Shown: positions 1-10,256 of the stretch, piece by piece
How the letters are laid out: every line of letters begins with the position of its first letter
How positions within the stretch are numbered: position 1 is the first letter of the stretch
DNA from: Thermoanaerobaculia bacterium
Lineage (GTDB): Bacteria > Acidobacteriota > Thermoanaerobaculia > Multivoradales > UBA5704
Reading direction: 5' to 3'
Assembly (NCBI GenBank): GCA_025937035.1
Contig: JAICSG010000082.1
Coordinates: 1 to 10,256 of the forward strand
Length of the DNA: 10,256 bases
Made by a program: the position numbers and the translations under genes
Notes under the pieces: model-generated
What the model saw: only the letters and a program-made list of their open reading frames with translations
What the model was told of the DNA's origin: nothing
Database searches by the model: none

Positions 1-506
1 CCGGCGGCGAGCAGCGACTTGAGCTCCGAGGCGAAGCCCAGCCGGCGGCCGTCGTCGGCCAGGAAGAGGGGCTTCTTACCAACCCGGTCGCGGGCCAGCA
101 GGAGCTTGCGGCGGCGGAAGTCGGCCACCGCCAGGGCGAACATGCCGGCCAGGCGCTCGACGCAGCCGGCCCCCAGCTCCTCCCAGAGATGGACGATCAC
201 CTCGGTGTCCGAGCGGGTGGCGAAGCGGTGCCCCCGCTCCTCCAGCCCCCGGCGCAGCTCGCGGTGGTTGTAGATCTCGCCGTTGCAGACCACCGCCACC
301 GTGCGGTCCTCGTTGAAGATCGGCTGATGGCCGCCGGCCACGTCGATGATCGACAGCCGGGCGTGGCCGAGCCCCATCGTCCCGGCGAGATGGACCCCCT
401 GGTCGTCCGGGCCGCGGTGGCGCAGCGGGGCCACCATGCGGGCCACTGTCTCGCGCCCTACCAGCGAGGGCTCCGCGTAATGGAACAGGCCTGCGATCCC
501 GCACAT
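1..506 (-). CDS. Asparagine synthase-like amidotransferase (N-terminal part, cut by window edge)
   Basis: Only the first 168 codons are present; the gene runs off the left edge. The product begins MCGIAGLF, so Cys2 becomes the N-terminal nucleophile of a class II glutamine amidotransferase after Met removal. Other hallmarks seen are RHRGPDD (29-35), GHARLSIID (47-55), NGEIYN (75-80), SDTEV (99-103), ARDRVGKKPLF (138-148) and FASELKSLL (158-166). This is the glutaminase half of an AsnB-type enzyme, which releases ammonia from glutamine; the synthetase half lies outside. The start is firm: AGGAGG (515-520) sits 8 nt upstream, and the stop of the ligase gene is 2 bp upstream. Asparagine-synthase paralogues in exosortase-type EPS loci (the 'amidotransferase 1, exosortase A system-associated' family) are thought to amidate a sugar or glycan rather than make free asparagine. 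That assignment here is inference from the neighbours; the amidotransferase fold itself is near certain. Confidence 0.95.
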   Translation of the reverse strand, partial: MCGIAGLFHYAEPSLVGRETVARMVAPLRHRGPDDQGVHLAGTMGLGHARLSIIDVAGGHQPIFNEDRTVAVVCNGEIYNHRELRRGLEERGHRFATRSDTEVIVHLWEELGAGCVERLAGMFALAVADFRRRKLLLARDRVGKKPLFLADDGRRLGFASELKSLLAA

Positions 507-508
507 GG

Positions 509-1840
509 TCAGGCCCTCCTCGCCATCGCGGGCTGGGGAAGGGGCCGCTTCCACCACGGCTCGTTGGAGACGGGGGCCGCCGGCGCCGCCGCCTCCGCTC
601 CCGCCGCCGCTTCCGAGCGCGCGATGATCTCCAGGCTCACGCTCATGGCGATGAGCTGGTAGAGCAGCTCGGAGTAGGCCGTGCTGAGGAAGATGCTGCC
701 GATCAGGTAGGCGAGGAGCGAGATCTGGAGCATGCGGGCGTAGACCTCGACCCAGGAGTCCCGCTCCGCGGCCCGCTGCATCCGCCGCAGGCTCCAGAAG
801 CCCGAGGCGATGGCGGCCAGGAAGAGCACCAGGGCCGGCAGGCCGCACTCGCAGAGGATCTGCAGATAGGCGTTGTGGGACACCCGGAAGCGCTCCGGCT
901 CCGGCGAGTAGTCGCGGTAGACCACCTCCAGGTTGTTCGGCCCGACGCCGAAGACCGGATAGTCGAGGAACACCCCCCAGGAAGTCTGCCAGGCGTTGAG
1001 CCGCCCCATGGCCGAGCGGTCCTCGTGGTAGTCGGAGATCGTCTGCGCCCGCTCGACGTAGTCCTTGGTGAAGCGGTCGGAGGTCCAGAAGTAGAAGCCG
1101 CCGAGCGCCAGCGCGACCACCAGCATCACCGCCACCCGGTGGCGCGAGCGCCAGATGAGCAGTGGCAGGACGGCGGCGAGCGTGAGCAGGCCCCCGCGCG
1201 AGAAGGTGAACAGGATGGTGGCCACGCAGAGGGCGGCGACCACCCACGCGGCGATCTTGAGGTAGCGCTGCTTCTCGGTGAGGATGATCGCCGCCAGCAG
1301 GGGCAGGATCATGTTGAGGACCATGGCGAAGCTGTTGTTGTCCGACATGAAGCCGCCCGGCCCGTCGTAGTAGCGGGCGCCGCCGGTCAGCAGCCCCAGG
1401 AAGCCGCGCTTGGCGCCCAGGAAGCCGATCGAGAAAGCGATCAGTATCACCAGGTAGCGGAATCTCTGGCGGTCGATCACCAGCCCGGTGGTGATGACGC
1501 TGATCGCGATCGCCTTCCAGTAATAGCCGTACATCTCCCCCGAGACGTCGGGCAGCACGGCGGTCACCACCGTGATGCTGATCCATCCGGCGAGCAGGAG
1601 GAGCAGCACCGTCTGGACCTTGAGGGTCAGCCAGCGCTCGCGCCCCAGCGCCATCACCAGGCCGATCGCCAGGGCGACCGCCACCACCTGCGAGAGCGGC
1701 AGGGTGCGGGAGGCCCCCCAGGCCATGTCCTGCGGCCGCATGTAGGCCAGCCACCCGTAGACCAGCAGCCCGAAGTAGGGGCGGAAGACGATCACGGGCA
1801 GCGAGGCGCAGACGAGGCCGATGACGATCAGGTCACGCAC
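509..1840 (-). CDS. O-antigen ligase-like membrane protein, exosortase A-associated type
   Basis: A 443-residue polytopic membrane protein with about ten hydrophobic segments (for example 3-31, 50-66, 76-96, 109-123, 128-148, 169-187, 194-212, 218-230, 236-251, 331-350, 370-388). It has the Wzy_C/WaaL-type pattern: SRGG (214-217) at the end of a helix, a soluble loop from about 254 to 325, and FGVGPNN (297-303) followed by SHNAYLQ (321-327). The N-terminal YMRPQDMAWG stretch (33-42) resembles the family named putative O-glycosylation ligase, exosortase A-associated. Family members join or polymerise undecaprenyl-linked glycans at the periplasmic face; which acceptor is used here is unknown. 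The start is GTG, supported by GGGAGG (1847-1852) 6 nt upstream; the reading frame overlaps the preceding glycosyltransferase by 8 bp. The last 35 residues are an Ala/Pro-rich, probably cytoplasmic tail. Confidence 0.88.
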   Translation of the reverse strand: MRDLIVIGLVCASLPVIVFRPYFGLLVYGWLAYMRPQDMAWGASRTLPLSQVVAVALAIGLVMALGRERWLTLKVQTVLLLLLAGWISITVVTAVLPDVSGEMYGYYWKAIAISVITTGLVIDRQRFRYLVILIAFSIGFLGAKRGFLGLLTGGARYYDGPGGFMSDNNSFAMVLNMILPLLAAIILTEKQRYLKIAAWVVAALCVATILFTFSRGGLLTLAAVLPLLIWRSRHRVAVMLVVALALGGFYFWTSDRFTKDYVERAQTISDYHEDRSAMGRLNAWQTSWGVFLDYPVFGVGPNNLEVVYRDYSPEPERFRVSHNAYLQILCECGLPALVLFLAAIASGFWSLRRMQRAAERDSWVEVYARMLQISLLAYLIGSIFLSTAYSELLYQLIAMSVSLEIIARSEAAAGAEAAAPAAPVSNEPWWKRPLPQPAMARRA

Positions 1841-3203
1841 GCCGCGCCTCCCGCGCCGCGGCGGCCGGAGCCGGAGCCTCCATCTCGGCGCGCCGGCCCT
1901 CCGGCGGCAGTGGAGAGCCGGCCGGCGGGCGTGCCACGGTGCCGACCAGATCCTCCAGGCGGTCGAGATTGGGGGCCCAGCGGTAGTTGGCGAGCAGCCG
2001 CTGGCGGGCGCAGTCGGCCAGGCGCTCGCGCTCGCGCTCGTCCTCGATCAGGGTGGAGATGGCCCGCTCCATCCCCTCGTCGGTGGAGGCGGCCAGCAGG
2101 TCCCGCCCGCTGCGGAAGCCGCCGTCGGCGAGACCCGCGAGCACGCGCTCCGTGCACACCACCGGCAGGTTCGAGGCGATCGCCTCCAGCACCTTGTTCT
2201 GCACCCCCTGGGCGATGCGCAGGGGCGCCACGAACACCCAGGCGCGGGCCAGGAAGGGGCGCACGTCCCCCACCGCGCCGGTGACCTGGACGCCGGGGAT
2301 CTCCCCCAGGTCGCGCACCGCCGCCACCGGCGAGCGGCCCACGATCAGCAGCTCGGCCTCGGGGTGGTGCTGGCGCAGGCGCGGGAAGACCTCGCGGGCG
2401 AAATGGGTCACCCCGTCGACGTTGGCGAAGTAGTCCATCTGGCCGGTGAAGACCAGGGTCGGCTTGGCGGCCTTGGGCAGGTCGAGCGGCTGGAAGAAGT
2501 CGACGTCGACGCCGTTGAGCAGGGTGACGGCCCTGGCCGCCGGCGCGCTCGCCTTGTAGAGCCGGGTCTCGTTGCCGGTGGCGAAGGCGATGCGCTGGAA
2601 GCGGCCGGCGAGCGAGGCCTCGTAGCGCCGCAGCCGCCGCGCCTCCAGGGCGTAGACCGGCCGCAGGGGGAGCGGCGCGAAGCGGGCGTACTGGGCCCAC
2701 TTGGCCGAGTCGACGTCCACCATGTCGAGGATCGCCGGCACGTCCGGCGCCAGGGCGGCGTAGGGAGCCATCGACGAGCAGTAGACGACGGCCACGTCGA
2801 AGCGCTCGCGGCGGGCCAGCTCGCGCACCCGCTCCGCCATCTCCTTGGACTCGAAGAAGGACAACGAGAGCGGGCGCGGACGCCAGGCCCCGAGCGCCGC
2901 CCGCGCGAAGGAGGCCGGACGGCTCAGGGGGAAGACCTCGACCCGCTCGCACATCGCCTCCAGCGGCGCCAGGTCGGGAACGGGCCCATCGCAGAGCGCC
3001 AGCACGCTCACCTTGTGGCGCTCGGAGAGGGCCCGGATCTGATGGTAGGCGCGGATCTTCTCCCCCTTGTCCGGCGGGTAGGGGACGCGGTGGCAGAGGT
3101 AGAGGATCCGCAGGCCGGCGCGCGGGCGGGCGACGTGCCGCAGCAGGTCCACGGGGGGTTTCGGCGAGGGCGCCGCGTCGTTCGGAAGGGCCGGCTCGGT
3201 CAT
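1833..3203 (-). CDS. GT4-like glycosyltransferase, PEP-CTERM/EPS-associated (stp1-like)
   Basis: A 456-residue cytoplasmic enzyme with a two-Rossmann (GT-B) layout. The N-terminal domain opens with RILYLCHRVPYPPDKGEKIR (32-51), close to the opening of the family called sugar transferase, PEP-CTERM/EpsH1 system associated. The C-terminal domain has LLNGVDVDFF (228-237), LVFTGQMDY (250-258), ELLIVGRSP (284-292), and the donor-binding stretch QGVQNKVLEAIA (332-343), equivalent to the GT4 E(x7)E region. It should add a sugar from a nucleotide donor to the lipid-linked repeat unit; donor and linkage cannot be read from sequence. The ATG at 3203 is chosen because it overlaps the previous stop as ATGA and has a GAGG upstream; the frame stays open to 4001, but that stretch is antisense-free shadow of the sugar transferase gene. 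The tail (424-456) is Ala/Pro/Arg-rich and probably disordered. Confidence 0.92.
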   Translation of the reverse strand: MTEPALPNDAAPSPKPPVDLLRHVARPRAGLRILYLCHRVPYPPDKGEKIRAYHQIRALSERHKVSVLALCDGPVPDLAPLEAMCERVEVFPLSRPASFARAALGAWRPRPLSLSFFESKEMAERVRELARRERFDVAVVYCSSMAPYAALAPDVPAILDMVDVDSAKWAQYARFAPLPLRPVYALEARRLRRYEASLAGRFQRIAFATGNETRLYKASAPAARAVTLLNGVDVDFFQPLDLPKAAKPTLVFTGQMDYFANVDGVTHFAREVFPRLRQHHPEAELLIVGRSPVAAVRDLGEIPGVQVTGAVGDVRPFLARAWVFVAPLRIAQGVQNKVLEAIASNLPVVCTERVLAGLADGGFRSGRDLLAASTDEGMERAISTLIEDERERERLADCARQRLLANYRWAPNLDRLEDLVGTVARPPAGSPLPPEGRRAEMEAPAPAAAAREARRA

Positions 3204-4591
3204 CGGGCACCTCGTCCCAGCAGCACGATCCTGGCCGTGGAGAGCAGGATCGAGATGTCCAGGAACAGAGACAGGTTCTTGATGTAGTAGAGATCGAACT
3301 TGAGCTTCTCGATCGACTCCTCGAAGGTGGAGGCGTACGGCGCCTTGACCTGCGCCCAGCCGGTCAGGCCCGGCCGCACCACCAGCCGCTGCTCGTACCA
3401 GGGGCACTGCTCCTTGAGCTGGTCGACGAACATCCGGCGCTCGGGGCGGGGGCCCACCAGGCTCATGTCGCCCACCAGCACGTTCCAGAGCTGCGGCAGC
3501 TCGTCGAGGCGGGTCTTGCGGATGAAGCGCCCCACGCGGGTGACCCGGGGGTCCCCCTCGACGGCCCAGCGGGCGCCAGCGGCCTCGGCGTCGGTGCGCA
3601 TGGAGCGGAACTTCCAGAGGGTGAACTCGCGGCCGCCGCGCCCCACCCGCTCCTGGCGGAAGAAGACGGGGCCGGGGGAGTCGAGCCGCACGGCGAGGGC
3701 CACCAGCAGCATGAAGGGCAGCGCCACGACCAGCCCGACCGTGGCCACCAGGATGTCGAGCAGGCGCTTGGCGAACAGGGTGCCGCGCGAGACCACGAAA
3801 CCGTCCGAGAAGATCAGCCACGACTTGCGCAGCCCCTCGACCATGATCTTGCCGGTGAGCTGCTCGTAGTAGCTGTACCCCTCCTGCACGCGGATGCCGT
3901 TGGTCTTGCACTCCAGCAGGGCGTCCATGCTGAGGTGCCCGCGGTAGTCCATGGCGGCCACCACCACGCGGGTGACCCCGTGCTGGACGGCGAGCTCGCA
4001 CGCCTGGGCCGTGGTGCCGATGACGCGCGGGTTGATCAGGCTCACCCCCTGGAGCGCCGGATCGTCGTCGAGGAAGCCGACCACGCGGTAGCCCAGGTGC
4101 TTGCGCGACAGGATCTCGCGGGCGATGTCGATCGCCTTCTTGTCGGAGCCGACGATCATCACCCGCTCGGCGAATCCCTCCGAGCGGAGGAGCCAGCGCA
4201 GAACCACCCGCCAGGCGAGCACGAGGGACATGCCGAAGACCAGCGCCAGGGCGAAGACGCCGCGGCCGGTCTGCACGTCGGGGACCATGAAATAGAGCGC
4301 CCAGGAGGCGACCGCCAGCACCGAGAAGGCGCGCAGCAGCCGGATCAGCAGCTCCCGGCTCGACAGCCGCTCCCCGAAGTCGTAGAGGCCGTTGGCGTAG
4401 AGGCAGAGCAGACCGATGATCATGAAGGTCAGCGCGTCGTTCAGAACCGTGGAGCCCGGCGGCAGCGTGCCGGGGCCCACCCCCAGGCGGAGCTGGATGG
4501 CGAGCGGCACCGCCGCCAGCAGCAGCAGCCCCTCGGCGGTCAGCGAGACCACCGCCGGCAAGGCCCAGTAACGGTTGAACAGTCGGATCAT
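3200..4591 (-). CDS. Polyprenyl-phosphate sugar-1-phosphate transferase (initiating enzyme), exosortase-associated type
   Basis: A 463-residue WbaP-like protein. Hydrophobic helices lie near 14-34, 52-70, 85-103 and 112-135. A Rossmann-like CoA-binding_3 domain follows (VMIVGSD 144-150, VVGFLDDDP 170-178). The C-terminal catalytic bacterial sugar transferase domain has a re-entrant/membrane segment 276-303 (KRLLDILVATVG), SPGPVFFRQERVGRGG (305-320), LWKFRSM (325-331), the Asp-Glu pair of this family at D363-E364 in RLDELPQLWNVL, SLVGPRPE (377-384), and RPGLTGWAQV (406-415). It transfers a sugar-1-phosphate from a nucleotide sugar to undecaprenyl phosphate on the inner leaflet, the first step of repeat-unit assembly. 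Opening and length fit the 'sugar transferase, PEP-CTERM system associated' group (EpsB-like). The start at 4591 lies 16 bp after the kinase stop with GGGAGACGAGG upstream. All catalytic motifs appear intact. The sugar specificity is unknown. Confidence 0.95.
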   Translation of the reverse strand: MIRLFNRYWALPAVVSLTAEGLLLLAAVPLAIQLRLGVGPGTLPPGSTVLNDALTFMIIGLLCLYANGLYDFGERLSSRELLIRLLRAFSVLAVASWALYFMVPDVQTGRGVFALALVFGMSLVLAWRVVLRWLLRSEGFAERVMIVGSDKKAIDIAREILSRKHLGYRVVGFLDDDPALQGVSLINPRVIGTTAQACELAVQHGVTRVVVAAMDYRGHLSMDALLECKTNGIRVQEGYSYYEQLTGKIMVEGLRKSWLIFSDGFVVSRGTLFAKRLLDILVATVGLVVALPFMLLVALAVRLDSPGPVFFRQERVGRGGREFTLWKFRSMRTDAEAAGARWAVEGDPRVTRVGRFIRKTRLDELPQLWNVLVGDMSLVGPRPERRMFVDQLKEQCPWYEQRLVVRPGLTGWAQVKAPYASTFEESIEKLKFDLYYIKNLSLFLDISILLSTARIVLLGRGAR

Positions 4592-4607: not shown

Positions 4608-5348
4608 CTAGTAGTACCCGCGGTATCCGCGCGCCGAGACCGGCGCGAAGTTGAGCACCGCTCCGATGAGCTTCTCGGGCCCGAGGGCCGAGAGGGTCTT
4701 CTCGATGTCGTGCCGCTTGCTCTGCCCCGCCCGCACCACCATCACCACGCCGTCCGAGCGGGCGGCCAGCGACCGGGCGCTGGCGAGCAGCGTCATCGGC
4801 GGCGAGTCGATCACCACGATCTCGTAGGCGGCGCGGGCCTCGTTGAGCACCTCCGACATCCGCCGCCCCGACATCAGGTCGCCGGCCACCTCGGAGGCGC
4901 CGGCGAGCAGCACGTCGAGGCTGCTCCCCTCCAGCGTGACCACGGAGTCGGCGATCGTCGTCCGCCGCTCGAGCACCTGCTGCAACCCCGGCCGGTCGGG
5001 CCGCTCCGGAACGAAGTAGGTGTGGAGCTGCGGGCGCCAGAGGTCCCCTTCGAGCAGCAGCACGCGCCGCTCCTCGCCGCGGGTGAGGGTGACGGCCAGG
5101 TTGAGGCTGGTCAGCGTCTTGCCCGCCCCCTCCTCGGCGCTGGTCACGGTCAGCGTGTACCCCCAGGTGCCCAGCGGGTTGATGCGCTCCTCGACCTGCA
5201 CGGCCAGGCTCCGGTACTGCTCGGCCACGAAGGTCGGCTTGTCCATGTAATTGACCACCGGCGCGTCGTCGCTCAGCTGCACGCGGCGCGACGGCGCGAG
5301 ATCGCGGTGGATCCTCGGGGGTCTCTCGGTCCTCAGCGGCATGTCCAT
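4608..5348 (-). CDS. CpsD/CapB-type tyrosine autokinase, EPS-associated
   Basis: A 246-residue P-loop protein, separate from its membrane partner (the Wzz gene just upstream), as in CpsC/CpsD pairs. Seen: a contact region FVAEQYRSLAVQV (40-52), Walker A SAEEGAGKT (70-78), a Walker A'-like strand VLLLEGDLWRP (96-106), LDVLLAGAS (144-152), Walker B VVIDSPP (178-184) and a C-terminal tyrosine cluster (Y242, Y245, Y246). Such bacterial tyrosine kinases are switched on by Wzz, autophosphorylate the tail in trans, and control polymer length and export. The length and setting fit the 'exopolysaccharide/PEP-CTERM locus tyrosine autokinase' group. The Walker A' motif departs from the usual D-x-D-x-R: it reads E100-G-D102-L-W104, followed by R105. 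The ATG at 5348 is 6 bp after the previous stop; AGGAGGAG lies about 10 nt upstream. Met3 is a weaker alternative start. Confidence 0.92.
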   Translation of the reverse strand: MDMPLRTERPPRIHRDLAPSRRVQLSDDAPVVNYMDKPTFVAEQYRSLAVQVEERINPLGTWGYTLTVTSAEEGAGKTLTSLNLAVTLTRGEERRVLLLEGDLWRPQLHTYFVPERPDRPGLQQVLERRTTIADSVVTLEGSSLDVLLAGASEVAGDLMSGRRMSEVLNEARAAYEIVVIDSPPMTLLASARSLAARSDGVVMVVRAGQSKRHDIEKTLSALGPEKLIGAVLNFAPVSARGYRGYY

Positions 5349-5354
5349 GGGTCG

Positions 5355-6836
5355 TCATCTCCTCCTGGTCCGAGAGGCGCTCCGGGCGCCTTGAAAGACG
5401 GGAATGGTGGCCAGCACGGGCAGGCCGGGGAAGGCCTGCTGCAAAGCTTCGACATCGGGATAGGTGTAGTCCGAGCGCTCGCGCAGCAGCGCCGCCATCA
5501 GGCCCAGCAGGCCGCCGGCGATCAGCCCCAGGCCGAGCACCAGGAGCCGGTTGGGGCTGTAGGGAGAGGTCGGCGGCAGCGCCCGCTCGAGGATGGTGAA
5601 GCTCTCCCCCTGCTGGCTCTTCTCGAGGTTCTCGTAGAGCCGGGCGTTCAGCCGCTTGTCGAGCAGCGACTCGTAGGAATTCTTGATGTTGTCGTAGTCG
5701 CGGGTCAGCGACAGCAGCTCCTGCTCGACCCGCGGCACGTTCTCCAGCCGCCCCTGGACCCGCGCGATGTCCCCCAGGATGCGCTCGCGCTCGGTCTTCA
5801 GGCTGCGGATCTCCAGGTCGACCGAGGCCACCTCGGCCTTGAGCATGGGATCGGCCTTCGGCGCGTCGGCGTCATCGTCGCCGGGCGCGGCGGAGGCGGC
5901 GGTGCTCGCGGCGGGGGGCGGCGTCCGCTGAGCCTTCTCCAGGGCCTCCAGCTGGGCGATCTCGGCGCGGGTGCGGATGACGTCCGGATGGCGGTCGGTG
6001 TAGCGGGCGCGGAGCTCGGCGAGCTGGGCCCGGAGCTGGTCGAGGTGCGACGGCTTGTCCGGCCCGGCCGAGACGACCCCGAGGGCGGCCAGGGTCGAGC
6101 GGCGGGCGCCACTCTGCTGGTTGCGCAGCTCGGCCATCTGGCTCTGCAGGAGGAGGCGGCGCGTCTCGGCCTTGTCGAGCGCGTCCATGTTGATCTCCAG
6201 CTTGGTCTGGAGCTGCTCGACGCTGCGCAGGTTGGTGTCGCGCTGCTCGGGGAGGTCCCCGATGTTCTGGCGCTTGAACTCGGCGATCCTGGCCTCCTGG
6301 ATCTCCAGGCGGCTCTTGGTCTTCTCCATCTCGCTCTCCAGGAACGAGGAGGTCCCCTGGGCCTGGTTCTCGCGCAGCTTGAGATTGCTCTCGATGAAGC
6401 TCTCCGCCACCCGGTTGGCCGTGCGGGCGGCCTTCACCGGGTCGCGCTCCTCGAAGTAGATGCGGAAGGTGTTCCCCTGGAGCTGGATCGTCAGGTCGCG
6501 GCGGGCCCGGGCGATGGCCCCTTCCAGGAAGCCCCGGCGCGTCAGCTCGGGGTAGAGGTCCATCTCGCGGATGATCCGCGCGAGGTTGTCGCGGTTCTTG
6601 ATCTGCGGCTCGATGGTGCGCAGCCGGTCCTCGATGCTGGTGGCGATCGTCGGCTTCACGTAGTCGGCGGGCACCTTCTGCGGCTCGACCAGCACCGTGG
6701 TCACCGCCCGGTAGGTCTTGGGCAGCACCCGCAACGCCCAGATCGCCCCGGCGATGCCGAGCACGAGCGGCACCAGGAACCAGATGCGCCGCCGCCAGAC
6801 GGCCCGGGTGATATCACTTGGAGTCAGATTTATCAT
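5355..6836 (-). CDS. Wzz/GNVR chain-length determinant, EPS co-polymerase
   Basis: A 493-residue inner-membrane polysaccharide co-polymerase. An N-terminal Wzz domain contains TM1 (about 19-38). A long periplasmic region with extended coiled coil (about 150-290 and 335-400) follows, then the GNVR-type stretch NVPRVEQELLSL (366-377), a proline-rich PPTSPYSPNR (421-430) and TM2 (431-451). The 42-residue cytoplasmic tail has YPDVEALQQAFPGLPVLATI, the usual site near where the kinase docks, but no kinase domain, which is supplied by the next gene. It resembles the 'polysaccharide chain length determinant, PEP-CTERM locus' family. An Ala/Pro/Asp-rich low-complexity linker (about 302-335) interrupts the coiled coil. 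The start at 6836 overlaps the end of the barrel gene by 23 bp; GGGGAGG lies 10 nt upstream. Confidence 0.94.
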   Translation of the reverse strand: MINLTPSDITRAVWRRRIWFLVPLVLGIAGAIWALRVLPKTYRAVTTVLVEPQKVPADYVKPTIATSIEDRLRTIEPQIKNRDNLARIIREMDLYPELTRRGFLEGAIARARRDLTIQLQGNTFRIYFEERDPVKAARTANRVAESFIESNLKLRENQAQGTSSFLESEMEKTKSRLEIQEARIAEFKRQNIGDLPEQRDTNLRSVEQLQTKLEINMDALDKAETRRLLLQSQMAELRNQQSGARRSTLAALGVVSAGPDKPSHLDQLRAQLAELRARYTDRHPDVIRTRAEIAQLEALEKAQRTPPPAASTAASAAPGDDDADAPKADPMLKAEVASVDLEIRSLKTERERILGDIARVQGRLENVPRVEQELLSLTRDYDNIKNSYESLLDKRLNARLYENLEKSQQGESFTILERALPPTSPYSPNRLLVLGLGLIAGGLLGLMAALLRERSDYTYPDVEALQQAFPGLPVLATIPVFQGARSASRTRRR

Positions 6837-8109
6837 CGGTCGTGGGCCTCCCCAGGCTCGCCGGCTCCACCGGGTTTTCCCCCGAGTTGTAGAGGCGGAA
6901 AGCCAGGTTCACGTAGTAGCGGGAATACGAGAGATTGGCGAAGGGCGCCACCTGGGCGCGCTGCCAGATGCGGGAGTAGCCCGCTTCCAGCCGGTACGCC
7001 GGGGCGAAGCTCCAGCCGGCGCGCACCGTGCCGGCGGCGAACCGGGTCAGGGTCAGGTCCTGGCCCTGGTCCGGGCCGAGAGTCCCCTGGTGCGGCAGGT
7101 CGCGCTGGCGCGAGACGTTGCCGTCGAGCCCCAGGGTCAGCCGCCGGCCGATCGCCGTCGAGAGCCCGAGGAAGGCGTTGTCCGCCGTCACCGCGCGGCC
7201 GAGGCCGGCGCCCGGGGAGATGTCGTGGCTGGCGCCCAGCGACCAGTGGAAGAGCCGCTCGTCGCGGGCGAACTGGAGGCTCCCCCGCCAGCCGGTGTCG
7301 CTCTCCCGGAAGGCCGTGAAACCGGCGGCCGGCCGCAGCGTCGAGTCCTCCGAGTAGGCGCCCCCCTCCAGCCGCAGGTGATTGTCGCGGCCGATGTCGG
7401 TCGCGTAGGCGATCCCCACCGTGCGGACGTCGGAGCTCCCCCGCTGCCGGTAGTCGTAGCGCGCGGCGCCCACGGCGGCCTCGACGCGGCTCCCCCGCGC
7501 CAGCTCGAACGCCGCGCCCAGGCGGGCGCCCAGGGTCTCGGAATCGAAGAGGTTGACGTCCTGGTAGCGGAGCAGGGAGTGCGAGACGCCGGCGAACATC
7601 GAGGCGTGGCGGCCGAGCGTCTGATCCAGGGAGACGTCCAGGACGTTGCTCAGCTGATTGCCGTGCCGGGTCACCACCGTGGTCTGAGTGGTGTTGACCG
7701 GCGCGTAGAGATCGATGTCGGGGGTGGAGATCAGGTTCTCGCGCACGTTCAGGCGCGTCTGCCGGCTGAGGTCCCCGATGAGGGCGAAGTCGAGCCGCTG
7801 GGTGGTGCCGGAGAGGCCGGAGCCGTCGAGCGTCCGCTCGTAGTACGGGGAGTAGCCGAGCGCCAGGCTCAGCCGCTCGAGGGCGTAGGAGAGCCGGAGG
7901 TTGAGCCCCAGCCGTCCCACCGTCCGGCTCTGCTGGAGAGACTGATCCTGCTGGAGGCCGTAGTTGCCGTCGTCGCGGGCCCCCGCCTCCCCCTCGACCA
8001 CGACGTTGAGGCGGCCCGGCGCCTGCGCCCTGGCGGGCCCGGCGAGCAGCACGAGGAGCAGCCCCAGGGGACCGATGCTCCTCCACTTCGTTGCTGGCAG
8101 CCTCTTCAT
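6814..8109 (-). CDS. Outer-membrane beta-barrel protein of the EPS operon (putative export porin)
   Basis: A 431-residue secreted protein. The start at 8109 is chosen because it gives a standard signal peptide: KR-rich n-region, GPLGLLLVLLAG hydrophobic core (13-24) and an ARA cleavage site before Q29. The frame is open to 8310, but the extra 67 residues have no signal-peptide character. The mature part is made of many short amphipathic segments alternating polar and aromatic/aliphatic residues (for example LNLRLSYALERLSLALGY and YYVNLAFRLYNS), separated by Gly/Asp/Asn-rich turns, as in a 14- to 18-strand barrel. It has no cysteine and no enzyme motif. EPS/PEP-CTERM loci often carry such barrels, annotated as PEP-CTERM-associated outer-membrane proteins. 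Because the export protein encoded at 8670-9257 lacks its own outer-membrane segment, I infer that this barrel supplies the exit pore. The Shine-Dalgarno is weak (GAGAG). The C-terminus is a hydrophilic tail rather than a terminal aromatic. Confidence 0.8.
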   Translation of the reverse strand: MKRLPATKWRSIGPLGLLLVLLAGPARAQAPGRLNVVVEGEAGARDDGNYGLQQDQSLQQSRTVGRLGLNLRLSYALERLSLALGYSPYYERTLDGSGLSGTTQRLDFALIGDLSRQTRLNVRENLISTPDIDLYAPVNTTQTTVVTRHGNQLSNVLDVSLDQTLGRHASMFAGVSHSLLRYQDVNLFDSETLGARLGAAFELARGSRVEAAVGAARYDYRQRGSSDVRTVGIAYATDIGRDNHLRLEGGAYSEDSTLRPAAGFTAFRESDTGWRGSLQFARDERLFHWSLGASHDISPGAGLGRAVTADNAFLGLSTAIGRRLTLGLDGNVSRQRDLPHQGTLGPDQGQDLTLTRFAAGTVRAGWSFAPAYRLEAGYSRIWQRAQVAPFANLSYSRYYVNLAFRLYNSGENPVEPASLGRPTTDDKSDSK

Positions 8110-8134
8110 AAGGTCGTCTCTCGTCGAGCTCTCC

Positions 8135-8153
8135 AAAAACGCCGAAACCGGCG
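8135..8153 (-). terminator. Terminator-like hairpin in the leader of the barrel operon (possible attenuator)
   Basis: On the leftward strand the sequence CGCCG-GTTT-CGGCG forms a perfect 5-bp stem with a 4-nt loop and is followed at once by TTTTT (8139 down to 8135). It lies only 25 nt before the barrel start codon, so a full stop here would silence the operon. The 3' part of a competing 7-bp inverted repeat (AACCGGC at 8175-8169 with GCCGGTT at 8152-8146) overlaps the 5' arm of the hairpin, the arrangement of an antiterminator. The stem is short and the function is inference. Confidence 0.4.
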
Positions 8154-8223
8154 CGAATTCAGCATTCGGCCGGTTCCACGGCATTCCAGGGATCACGCCC
8201 AACACCTTTCGATTCATTGCAGC

Positions 8224-8252
8224 TTGGCGCCCCTCGCGAGGGCCCCTGCCAA
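8224..8252. repeat. Imperfect inverted repeat in the leader
   Basis: TTGGC (8224-8228) and GCCAA (8248-8252) are complementary arms around a perfect 12-bp palindrome CCCTCGCGAGGG (8231-8242). It could be an operator or a structured element of the leader RNA. Seen directly; the role is unknown. Confidence 0.5.
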
Positions 8253-8411
8253 CTGTTGATCGAGACCTTTTACCCTGGTGTATGCCTCGTGCGAACCGGT
8301 TCTCGGCCATCTGCCAAGCCGTCCTACGAGATGCTTCTTCTACTCGATGCTTCCCAGCTGCTCAGGATCGAGGTCCTTCAAACGAAGTCCTGTGCTGCGG
8401 CCATGGGAGAG

Positions 8412-8427
8412 TGCAAGAGGGGTGCCA
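8412..8427 (-). promoter_or_regulatory. Sigma-54-type promoter for the barrel-led EPS operon
   Basis: The leftward strand reads TGGCACCCCTCTTGCA, matching the sigma-54 consensus TGGCACG-N4-TTGCA in 11 of 12 fixed positions with the exact GG-N10-GC spacing (GG 8426-8425, GC 8414-8413). The start of transcription is expected near 8401, leaving a leader of about 290 nt before the barrel ATG at 8109. Sigma-54 promoters need an enhancer-binding activator; none is encoded in the window. PEP-CTERM loci in other bacteria are controlled by sigma-54 with PrsK/PrsR, so the site fits the context. Confidence 0.72.
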
Positions 8428-8608
8428 GTGAGCGCGCCCCGGAGCGTGGCGATCGGCCCTCCCAGGGAGACCGTCGGGGTGTGCCCGGTTTCCGCCGCCC
8501 GCTCTTGCAACCCCCGCGTGTAGGTTTTTCCGCCCGGTCTGGAACCGCCTCTTTACCAAGCGCTGATTGAAAGAGACTGATAAGTCGATGATGTGGCTGA
8601 GGATAGCG

Positions 8609-8634
8609 CCCGCCCGCGTCACGCCGCGGACGGG
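8609..8634 (-). terminator. GC-rich hairpin downstream of the export gene
   Basis: The leftward RNA can form a 10-bp stem (CCCGUCCGCG with CGCGGGCGGG, one G-U pair) with a 6-nt loop, starting 36 nt after the stop of the export gene. No U tract follows on this strand; on the rightward strand the same element has one mismatch and is followed by TTTT. A terminator that separates the export gene from the barrel operon is plausible but not certain. Confidence 0.4.
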
Positions 8635-8669
8635 GTTTTGATACCTTTTCGTAACCGGGGAGGGAGATC

Positions 8670-9257
8670 TCAGGGGACGATCAGCGTGTCGCCGGGCTGG
8701 AGGAGGAGGTTGTCCTCGGGCTTCTTGCCGTTGATGATCGACTTGAGCTCGACCTCCATCCGCTTCTCCTGCCGGCCGTCGCGGCCGTCGCGCAGCAGGA
8801 CCACGCGCCCCTTGGCGTAGGGGGTGAGGCCGCCCGCCAGGGCCAGGGCCTGCATCAGCTTCCCCCGCGGCTCCAGATCGTAGGTCCCGGGATGGGCCAC
8901 CTCGCCGGTGACGTAGATCTTGCGCGAGTGGATCTCCTTGACCACCACCGAGACGCCCGGCGCCGTAACGTATTCCTTATATCCATCGGTCAGGGTTGCT
9001 TTAAGGGCCAGCGGCGTCATGCCCGCCGCCTGCACGTCGCCCAGCAGCGGCACCGAGATGCGGCCGTCCGGGCGCACGGGCACGGTCGCGGAGAGGTCCG
9101 GGTTCTTCCAGACGGAGACCTCCAGCACGTCGCCGATGCCGATCAAATAGGCGTTCGGCGGGTCCTGCTGGGTCCGCGTGACGGTCTGGGCGGAAGCCGC
9201 TCCGCAGAGCAGGACCAGCAGAGCGGCGGCGATTCGCGATATGGCCAGGGTTCTCAT
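8670..9257 (-). CDS. Short polysaccharide export (OPX/Wza-like) protein, PEP-CTERM-associated type
   Basis: A 195-residue periplasmic export protein. The signal peptide has core AAALLVLLCG (10-19) and cleavage site ASA before Q24. The Poly_export domain (about 36-110) shows YLIGIGDVLEVSVWKNPDLS (37-56), VRPDGRISVPLLGDV (61-75) and ALKATLTDGYKEYVTAPGV (84-102). One SLBB domain follows (113-195) with IYVTGEVAHPGTYDL (114-128), ALAGGLTPYAKG (139-150) and LQPGDTLIVP at the end. The protein stops there: it lacks the extra SLBB repeat and the C-terminal helix by which E. coli Wza crosses the outer membrane, so it needs a partner pore. Cys18 does not sit in a proper lipobox (preceded by VLL), so it is probably not a lipoprotein. 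The start at 9257 is set by the signal peptide and by GGAGGAG upstream; the open frame to 9392 has no such support. It has its own sigma-54-type promoter and is transcribed apart from the main operon. Confidence 0.93.
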   Translation of the reverse strand: MRTLAISRIAAALLVLLCGAASAQTVTRTQQDPPNAYLIGIGDVLEVSVWKNPDLSATVPVRPDGRISVPLLGDVQAAGMTPLALKATLTDGYKEYVTAPGVSVVVKEIHSRKIYVTGEVAHPGTYDLEPRGKLMQALALAGGLTPYAKGRVVLLRDGRDGRQEKRMEVELKSIINGKKPEDNLLLQPGDTLIVP

Positions 9258-9306
9258 ACCCACACTCCTCCGAGCGAACAAAGGTTCACCTGCGGTTGGC
9301 CGGAAG

Positions 9307-9322
9307 TGCAAGAAGCGCGCCG
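9307..9322 (-). promoter_or_regulatory. Sigma-54-type promoter for the export gene
   Basis: The leftward strand reads CGGCGCGCTTCTTGCA: GG (9321-9320), ten bases, GC (9309-9308), with GGC-CG and TTGCA as in the TGGCACG-N4-TTGCA consensus. The expected start is near 9296, giving a 38- to 39-nt leader before the ATG at 9257. Confidence 0.65.
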
Positions 9323-9341
9323 GAGCCCCCCCCCGGCCCCC

Positions 9342-9357
9342 TGGCCTGCGCGTTGCA
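9342..9357 (+). promoter_or_regulatory. Sigma-54-type promoter for the methyltransferase gene
   Basis: The rightward strand reads TGGCCTGCGCGTTGCA: GG (9343-9344), ten bases, GC (9355-9356), with TGGC and TTGCA identical to the consensus and two mismatches in between. The expected start is near 9368, giving a leader of about 42 nt before the ATG at 9410. Confidence 0.6.
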
Positions 9358-9383
9358 TTCAGGATCGCTCGCAGCACCAAAAG

Positions 9384-9397
9384 CCCGCGCACGCGGG
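9384..9397. repeat. Perfect dyad CCCGCG-N2-CGCGGG
   Basis: A 6-bp inverted repeat with a 2-bp spacer lies about 88 to 101 bp upstream of the predicted start of the export gene, a usual distance for an enhancer-binding activator, and just inside the predicted methyltransferase leader. The sequence is certain; its role as an activator site is inference. Confidence 0.4.
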
Positions 9398-9409
9398 GAG
9401 GCCCACACC

Positions 9410-10256
9410 ATGAAGAAACGCCTGCTCGATTGGATCCTCTGCCCTCAGTGCGGCGACCGGCCGCGGCTCGACGTCTTCCAGGAAGGAAAGGTGGAGCTCC
9501 CCTCGCCGGTGGCGTCGCCGGCCTGCTCCTTCTACTGCGGCCGGCACGGCGTGGCCCGGCCGGGTGAGATCACGCCGCCCCCGGACTGCAATTCCTGCTA
9601 TCGCGAGGAGATCCTGGAAGGGGCCCTCTCCTGCGCCTGCGGGCTGGTCTACCCGATCATCGACGGCATTCCCAGGATGCTCCGCAACGCCCGCGAGGAG
9701 TACCCCGACTTCTTCGCCCGCCACGGCCTGGCCGGCGTGCAGAAGTCAGCCGGCGTGCCCGGGGGGGACCGCCGCAGCTCGAAGAGCTTCGGCCTCCAGT
9801 GGACCCTCTACCAGGAGGGGGACGCCACCTGGTTCAAGGACGACGCCGGCCTGCGCAAGAAGGAGTTTCTTTATAACCTCGACACCACCCCCGAGGAGCT
9901 GCGGGGCTCCACCCTGCTCGACGGCGGCTGCGGCAACGGCGAGCTGACGCGGGCGGTGGCCGAATACGGCCCCGAGATCGTGGCCATGGACTTCAGCCGC
10001 AGCGTGGAGAACGCCCGCCGGCGGCTGTTCGAGAAGGGGTTCCCGGTGTCGCACAAGGTCCACTATCTCCAGGGGAACCTCCTGGAGCTGCCGCTGCTGC
10101 CGCGGAGCTTCGACATGGTGCACACCTCGGGCGTGCTCCACCACACGCCGAGCACCTACCGGGCCTTCCGCTCGATCAGCACGGCGGTGAAGCCGGGGGG
10201 CAAACTCTACGTGCAGCTCTATCGTCTGCGGCCGCGGTGGATCCATCTCGTCAACG
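9410..10256 (+). CDS. SAM-dependent methyltransferase with cysteine-rich zinc-ribbon N-terminus (cut by window edge)
   Basis: The first 282 codons are present; the gene runs off the right edge. The N-terminal part resembles a Trm112-like zinc ribbon: LLDWILCPQCG (5-15) and, after an unusually long insertion, GALSCACGLVYPIIDGIPRM (71-90). The insertion brings two more pairs, C39/C43 with H46, and C60/C63, for eight cysteines in all. A class I methyltransferase domain follows: motif I LLDGGCGNGEL (169-179), an acidic MDFSRS strand for SAM binding (about 195-200), FDMVHTSGVLHH and VKPGGKLYVQLYR near the window end. The substrate is unknown; its place beside an EPS locus suggests a sugar, glycan or lipid-linked intermediate. 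The start has GGGGAGG 8 nt upstream. It is divergent from the export gene and has a sigma-54-type promoter, so it may be co-regulated. Confidence 0.88.
   Translation, partial: MKKRLLDWILCPQCGDRPRLDVFQEGKVELPSPVASPACSFYCGRHGVARPGEITPPPDCNSCYREEILEGALSCACGLVYPIIDGIPRMLRNAREEYPDFFARHGLAGVQKSAGVPGGDRRSSKSFGLQWTLYQEGDATWFKDDAGLRKKEFLYNLDTTPEELRGSTLLDGGCGNGELTRAVAEYGPEIVAMDFSRSVENARRRLFEKGFPVSHKVHYLQGNLLELPLLPRSFDMVHTSGVLHHTPSTYRAFRSISTAVKPGGKLYVQLYRLRPRWIHLVN

Follow-up and report, generated by a model that had tools for sequence, protein, structure and literature searches.

Passages of Haft 2006 (PMC1569441) describe proteobacterial PEP-CTERM genes that are preceded by a box ending in TTTACA and by a sigma-54 motif, and that occur together with PrsK/PrsR. 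As given there, the box is a 17-nt motif located 32-92 nt before the sigma-54 motif, and the distance from site to start is 71 (SD 38.5, maximum 221). In Aquincola tertiaricarbonis, parts of PMC9850573 report that pepA is RpoN1-dependent, with a TGGCAC -24 box and a mapped start, while the genes for exopolysaccharide (EPS) synthesis appear to lie outside RpoN1 control. Sections of Francke 2011 (PMC3162934) associate sigma-54 with exopolysaccharide transport and synthesis genes and propose that it governs the bacterial exterior. In Acidobacteria, the titles and abstract openings of the papers listed, drawn from a literature with few subscription journals, yielded no treatment of sigma-54 or RpoN in connection with EPS, PEP-CTERM, stress or a regulon.

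The window analyzed here, 10,256 nucleotides, is one entire contig of the draft genome of a soil acidobacterium (5.69 Mb in 1254 contigs, 93.75% complete, 4% contaminated). Leftward from position 8109 lies a compact 7-gene operon, with intergenic gaps of at most 16 bases or overlaps, all on the minus strand. Its first gene encodes a barrel-like secreted protein (6814..8109), a label that stems from the initial annotation; searches of Pfam and NCBIfam returned no match for it, and its start was set at ATG 8109 by the signal peptide, the mechanical ORF start being 8310. Next come a polysaccharide chain-length determinant (5355..6836) and a tyrosine autokinase (4608..5348), for which TIGR03007 and a TIGR03018-like assignment are the best families, both under their cut-offs (270.3 vs 278.85 bits and 120.2 vs 230.65 bits, respectively). 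An EpsB-type sugar phosphotransferase (3200..4591, TIGR03013), a glycosyltransferase (1833..3203, TIGR03087) and a putative O-glycosylation-ligase-like protein (509..1840, TIGR03097) follow, and all 3 score above the NCBIfam cut-off, so that EPS genes of XrtA-associated families are present. The last gene, an amidotransferase (3..506), is truncated by the contig end; TIGR03108 is its best family, and the remaining piece scores 220.7 vs 816.9 bits. Upstream of the barrel operon, and likewise leftward, is a polysaccharide export gene (8670..9257, minus strand; Poly_export/SLBB) with TIGR03027 as its best family (145.2 vs a cut-off of 180 bits); we set its start at ATG 9257, the mechanical ORF start being GTG 9392. 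Divergent from it, a SAM-dependent methyltransferase gene with a Trm112-like N-terminus (9410..10255, plus strand, start ATG 9410) runs rightward to the contig end.

The initial annotation had read three 16-mers of this window as sigma-54-type promoters, each with the GG-N10-GC spacing, a C after GG and a TTGCA box. All three 16-mers were confirmed, coordinates and strands included, and our placement of the gene starts bears out that each lies in non-coding DNA and is aimed at a gene. Site 1 (TGGCACCCCTCTTGCA, 8412..8427, minus strand), which precedes the barrel/EPS operon and agrees with 11 of the 12 consensus letters, is almost certainly a sigma-54 promoter, judging from its motif class and its conservation. 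Site 2 (CGGCGCGCTTCTTGCA, 9307..9322, minus strand) before the export gene and site 3 (TGGCCTGCGCGTTGCA, 9342..9357, plus strand) before the methyltransferase gene each match 10 of 12 letters and are probably sigma-54 promoters as well. Taking the three as one set, it is likely that they serve as -24/-12 promoters for the barrel operon, for the export gene and for the methyltransferase gene that diverges from it, respectively. With the start of transcription placed 12 nt downstream, as the sigma-54 criterion has it, the coordinates predict starts at 8401, 9296 and 9368, which could be tested with RNA from a relative, and leaders of 292, 39 and 42 nt for sites 1, 2 and 3.

The consensus used for scoring was TGGCACG-N4-TTGCW (12 letters, GG and GC fixed), and the threshold of at least 10/12 was picked after the sites had been seen. 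At this threshold the window contains exactly sites 1-3, while the reversed pattern gives 2 matches. Dinucleotide shuffles of the 712 non-coding bases yielded a mean of 0.06 matches, with 3 reached in 0 of 5000; for shuffles of the full window the mean was 0.79, and 26 of 500 reached 3. Across 87 kb sampled from this genome as contigs picked for activator, kinase or rpoN genes, matches of at least 10/12 numbered 6 vs 9 for the reversed control, and those of 11/12 numbered 2 vs 1. The sites beat shuffled non-coding DNA, whereas 10/12 matches were no commoner than reversed controls in the 87-kb sample, and the score by itself therefore means little. For sites 2 and 3, whose score is at chance level genome-wide, the case is made by where they lie and by their being kept in the more distant of two congeners. 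A simple scan of positions 8050-9480, of a kind that is weak for GC-rich genomes, found no sigma-70-like match.

The genome encodes a full-length RpoN of 485 aa (TIGR02395, 441.8 bits vs a cut-off of 277.35), as the initial annotation had anticipated, and the sigma-54 DNA-binding domain was also found in both congeners, G001 and G002. Genome-wide, the pattern TGGC-N7-TTGCW occurs 93 times vs 54 for its reversed control, while TGGCAC-N5-TTGCW occurs 20 times vs once; the corresponding counts for the latter in relatives are 23 vs 3 in G001, 19 vs 2 in G002 and 13 vs 3 in G003. Site 1 belongs to this TGGCAC class and sites 2 and 3 do not, and it is because of the excess of the class over its control that site 1 stands out. 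According to a rough ORF caller, a same-strand frame begins within 700 bases of 17 of the 20 TGGCAC sites, and 4 of the 20 fall within a frame (same strand in 2 cases, opposite strand in 2); direct inspection revealed a start codon downstream of the remaining 3. When the first 1.1 kb downstream was compared across the three members of the genus, 14 of the 20 sites were matched by a site ahead of a similar gene in one congener or both; for 8 of them, site 1 included, this held in both. The middle bases differ between species in many of these conserved promoters.

Judged by the export protein, the nearest relatives among the genomes compared are the two congeners, G002 (93% identical) and G001 (78%), in which gene order at the locus is unchanged. 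Since G002 is 89% identical to the window, only G001 provides an informative comparison. In support of their reading as sigma-54 promoters, all three sites are kept in both congeners, with consensus scores (window, G002 and G001, respectively) of 11, 11 and 11 for site 1, 10, 10 and 10 for site 2, and 10, 10 and 11 for site 3. Site 1 retains 16 of 16 bases in G002 and 15 of 16 in G001, where the surrounding non-coding DNA is 69% and 47% identical, respectively; 15/16 in G001 is reached by 11 of the 545 16-mers of that non-coding stretch. G002 has site 2 unchanged; in G001 the site reads CGGAACGCTTCTTGCA, and there the multiple alignment missed it (5/16) and an ungapped scan together with pairwise mapping recovered it. 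Site 3 reads TGGCCCATGCGTTGCA in G002 and TGGCCCGGCCGTTGCA in G001: TGGCC and CGTTGCA are kept, the four middle bases change with each species, and the 13 of 16 bases kept in G001 are the maximum there, reached by 3 of 137 16-mers. The same two intergenic stretches of G001 contain exactly three 10/12 matches, compared with a shuffle mean of 0.04 and 0 of 5000 shuffles reaching 3. As controls, matches of at least 9 in the window kept their score in both congeners in 1 of 2 other forward cases (position 10151) and in 2 of 7 reversed cases, all three of these coding, and the sole non-coding reversed match was lost in the congeners. Elsewhere in G001, a second amidotransferase-like gene has a 10/12 sigma-54-like match (AGGCCCGCTTCTTGCT, L079:1904-1919) 14 bases ahead of it.

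These comparisons bear on two other readings of sites 2 and 3. In the first, site 1 is the sole sigma-54 promoter, the export and methyltransferase genes use other promoters, and sites 2 and 3 are remnants or matches by chance; this reading draws on the 10/12 counts in the 87-kb sample, on the position of both sites outside the TGGCAC class, and on deviant bases, as site 2 carries C instead of T ahead of GG, while its G001 counterpart lacks the C after GG. Sites 2 and 3 nevertheless hold their spacing and orientation in G001, even though the non-coding DNA around them is, outside the sites themselves, 40% identical to that of G001, and even though they are separated by 19 bp in the window, by 65 bp in G002 and by 9 bp in G001; we consider it unlikely that site 1 is the only promoter of the three. 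The same variation in distance weighs against regarding the divergent pair between the export and methyltransferase genes as the operator dyad of another regulator. Read outwards, sites 2 and 3 do form an inverted TGCAA/TTGCA pair, as such a dyad would, but a dyad of fixed geometry would not tolerate half distances of 9, 19 and 65 bp across three genus members, and each half is a complete 16-bp -24/-12 element, which makes an operator very unlikely.

A further reading takes the locus for a standard PEP-CTERM regulon under PrsK/PrsR. The gene families of the operon do bear XrtA/PEP-CTERM names, and sigma-54 control of PEP-CTERM genes has been published for proteobacteria, so that this part of the frame adopted by the initial annotation is real; here, in contrast, no Prs or PEP-CTERM match rose above cut-off. 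PrsK reached at best 100.6 vs 300 bits in this genome and 102.3 in G001, and G002 gave none at E <=1e-25. The PEP-CTERM domain PF07589, a model of 24 positions only that may miss distant forms, had no match at E <=1 here and none above cut-off in three relatives. A PrsR-type activator, which the initial annotation had expected, was sought in this genome alone, and the best candidate (C863) scored 403.8 vs a cut-off of 502.6 bits; AtoC, NtrC and ZraR models score higher on C863, all below their own cut-offs, and we rejected it as PrsR. This genome has one exosortase match, on another contig, at 26 bits vs a cut-off of 25.7 and covering positions 156-252 of 254; G001 has one, G002 two and G003 one, all off the contig that carries the EPS locus. 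Instead of XrtA, the one exosortase that was named in a congener was exosortase H (XrtH; G002, L223:1408-1974, 119.2 bits vs a cut-off of 86), again on a different contig from the EPS locus, and no exosortase is linked to the locus in the two congeners. Exact TTTACA is absent from positions 8050-8700 and 9250-9450 and from the corresponding DNA of both congeners; these regions hold one-mismatch matches only. With 1254 contigs and 94% completeness, absence of Prs/PEP-CTERM genes is no proof, but with PrsK, PrsR and PEP-CTERM all below cut-off, no linked exosortase in two congeners and no exact TTTACA, we regard the standard regulon as highly improbable.

Set beside the described systems, the three proposed promoters share some features and depart in others. 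Like the sites described in passages of Haft 2006 (PMC1569441), they consist of a sigma-54 motif before XrtA/EPS-tied genes with long non-coding DNA upstream, and sites 2 and 3, at 49 and 52 nt from the start codon, fall within the range given there, while site 1, at 302 nt, lies beyond the maximum of 221. Unlike those sites, they precede EPS machinery, not PEP-CTERM genes, and go without an exact TTTACA and with PrsK/PrsR below cut-off. With pepA of Aquincola tertiaricarbonis, as treated in parts of PMC9850573, this locus shares the TGGCAC -24 box, and that organism, too, has an EPS cluster whose families are related; RpoN dependence there concerns a PEP-CTERM gene and apparently not the EPS synthesis genes, and since the latter seemingly lie outside RpoN1, the wiring here differs. 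The promoter anatomy and the cell-surface/EPS theme are the same as in the systems covered by sections of Francke 2011 (PMC3162934), the accessible text of which does not contain 'Acidobacter'; the families here are XrtA-associated EPS families, and sigma-54 control of the EPS machinery itself would fit the proposal made there for the bacterial exterior. The finding is thus mostly an ordinary regulatory one, of a known kind of control with an unusual choice of targets. For an acidobacterial group represented here by draft genomes, it supplies a specific set of conserved sigma-54 promoters, and it suggests that sigma-54 can control XrtA-type EPS genes independently of the PEP-CTERM/Prs system from which their name comes.

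Sigma-54 promoters each need an ATP-using activator. The activator/DNA-binding portion of TIGR02915 was matched, in part or whole, at 18 places in this genome, and candidate activators are therefore abundant. Searches with tblastn (E <=1e-8), using as queries the 18 translations from this genome, some of them wrong-frame, found no linked activator gene on the contig that carries the locus in G001 (70 kb) or in G002 (30 kb). A candidate activator-binding (enhancer) block, AAAAACCTACACGCGGGGGTTG (8508..8529, minus strand), lies 80 bp upstream of site 1. The block recurs in G001 at L079:6005-6026; in G002 a diverged form aligns, yet there is no match at <=3 mismatches. Its 13-base core never occurs at <3 mismatches in 42 other TGGCAC promoters, and a search for a common activator box among TGGCAC promoters found no prominent k-mer or dyad.

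Between the predicted start and the barrel gene lies the 292-nt leader of the barrel operon (8110..8401, minus strand), which has blocks conserved in three species and a hairpin near the barrel start. Among the conserved blocks is GAGAACCGGTTC, and the long hairpin arms, AACCGGCCGAA and TTCGCGCCGGTT, are located directly before the barrel gene. No Rfam family matched the leader at gathering scores, and a relaxed threshold gave one meaningless weak match. Its folding z is -1.57, with 15 of 200 shuffles equally stable, and the covariation term of +0.5, from three sequences, lends no support. In a DNA search of 78 genomes, with at most 9 candidates scored per genome, the leader was found in this genome (G000), G001 and G002, along with two short weak matches (G004, G054).

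Under the preferred reading, that of three sigma-54 promoters, site 1 would give rise to a long transcript that begins with the leader and covers the barrel, chain-length, kinase, sugar-transferase, glycosyltransferase, ligase and amidotransferase genes. The export gene would be driven from site 2, and the methyltransferase gene from site 3, which stands back to back with it. Sigma-54 holoenzyme would be poised at each site until an activator bound at a distance upstream hydrolyses ATP and opens the DNA; for site 1, this activator may bind the candidate block at 8508-8529. Since the holoenzyme waits for the activator, envelope polysaccharide would be made only when the activator signals. We infer transcription from these sites, its start points, an activator with its signal, and the use of one activator at all three. 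The initial annotation had assembly, export and a methyltransferase controlled together, which is reasonable given that site 1 precedes a compact 7-gene operon, and the three sites may share an activator. Sites 2 and 3, as elements 9 and 19 bp apart in two species and 65 bp apart in the third, may be too close for two holoenzymes to bind together, and their closeness raises the possibility that export and modification exclude each other. More speculatively, and we hold this to be doubtful as a whole, sigma-54 would, in this acidobacterial genus, command XrtA-type polysaccharide assembly and export directly, the exosortase, PEP-CTERM proteins and PrsK/PrsR having been lost or never possessed, with sites 2 and 3 mutually exclusive.

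Beyond the genus, the export protein had a match in 51 of 78 genomes, and the loci examined were those of the two congeners and of the next 5. None of these 5 homologous loci, which belong to a different family within the order, had a site near the export gene. We also surveyed 77 named loci, namely the best 80 of 155 named loci with relatives minus 3 with <450 bases upstream. In 8 of them, a 10/12 site lying no more than 500 bases from the match was directed toward the export gene, G002 and G001 accounting for 2 of the 8; 7 had a 10/12 site pointing away, and the reversed control, on either strand, was found in 2. With 8 of 77 toward the export gene, sigma-54-like sites recur elsewhere, albeit sparsely. 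At two loci (L193 and L201), one from a Steroidobacter MAG and the other from another proteobacterial MAG, divergent sigma-54-like pairs sharing TGGCCTGTCCTTTGCA stand before the export genes.

The TGGCAC set also points to further predicted sigma-54 targets in this genome. At sites that include L086, L093, L094, L097, L106 and L087, they comprise genes for DUF892, DUF1328, DUF4142 and DJ-1/PfpI proteins and for a cyanophycin-synthase-like ligase, a POT transporter and a MoxR ATPase. Several of these resemble stress genes under sigma-S or sigma-B in other bacteria, and sigma-54 might run a stress-like regulon in this genus.
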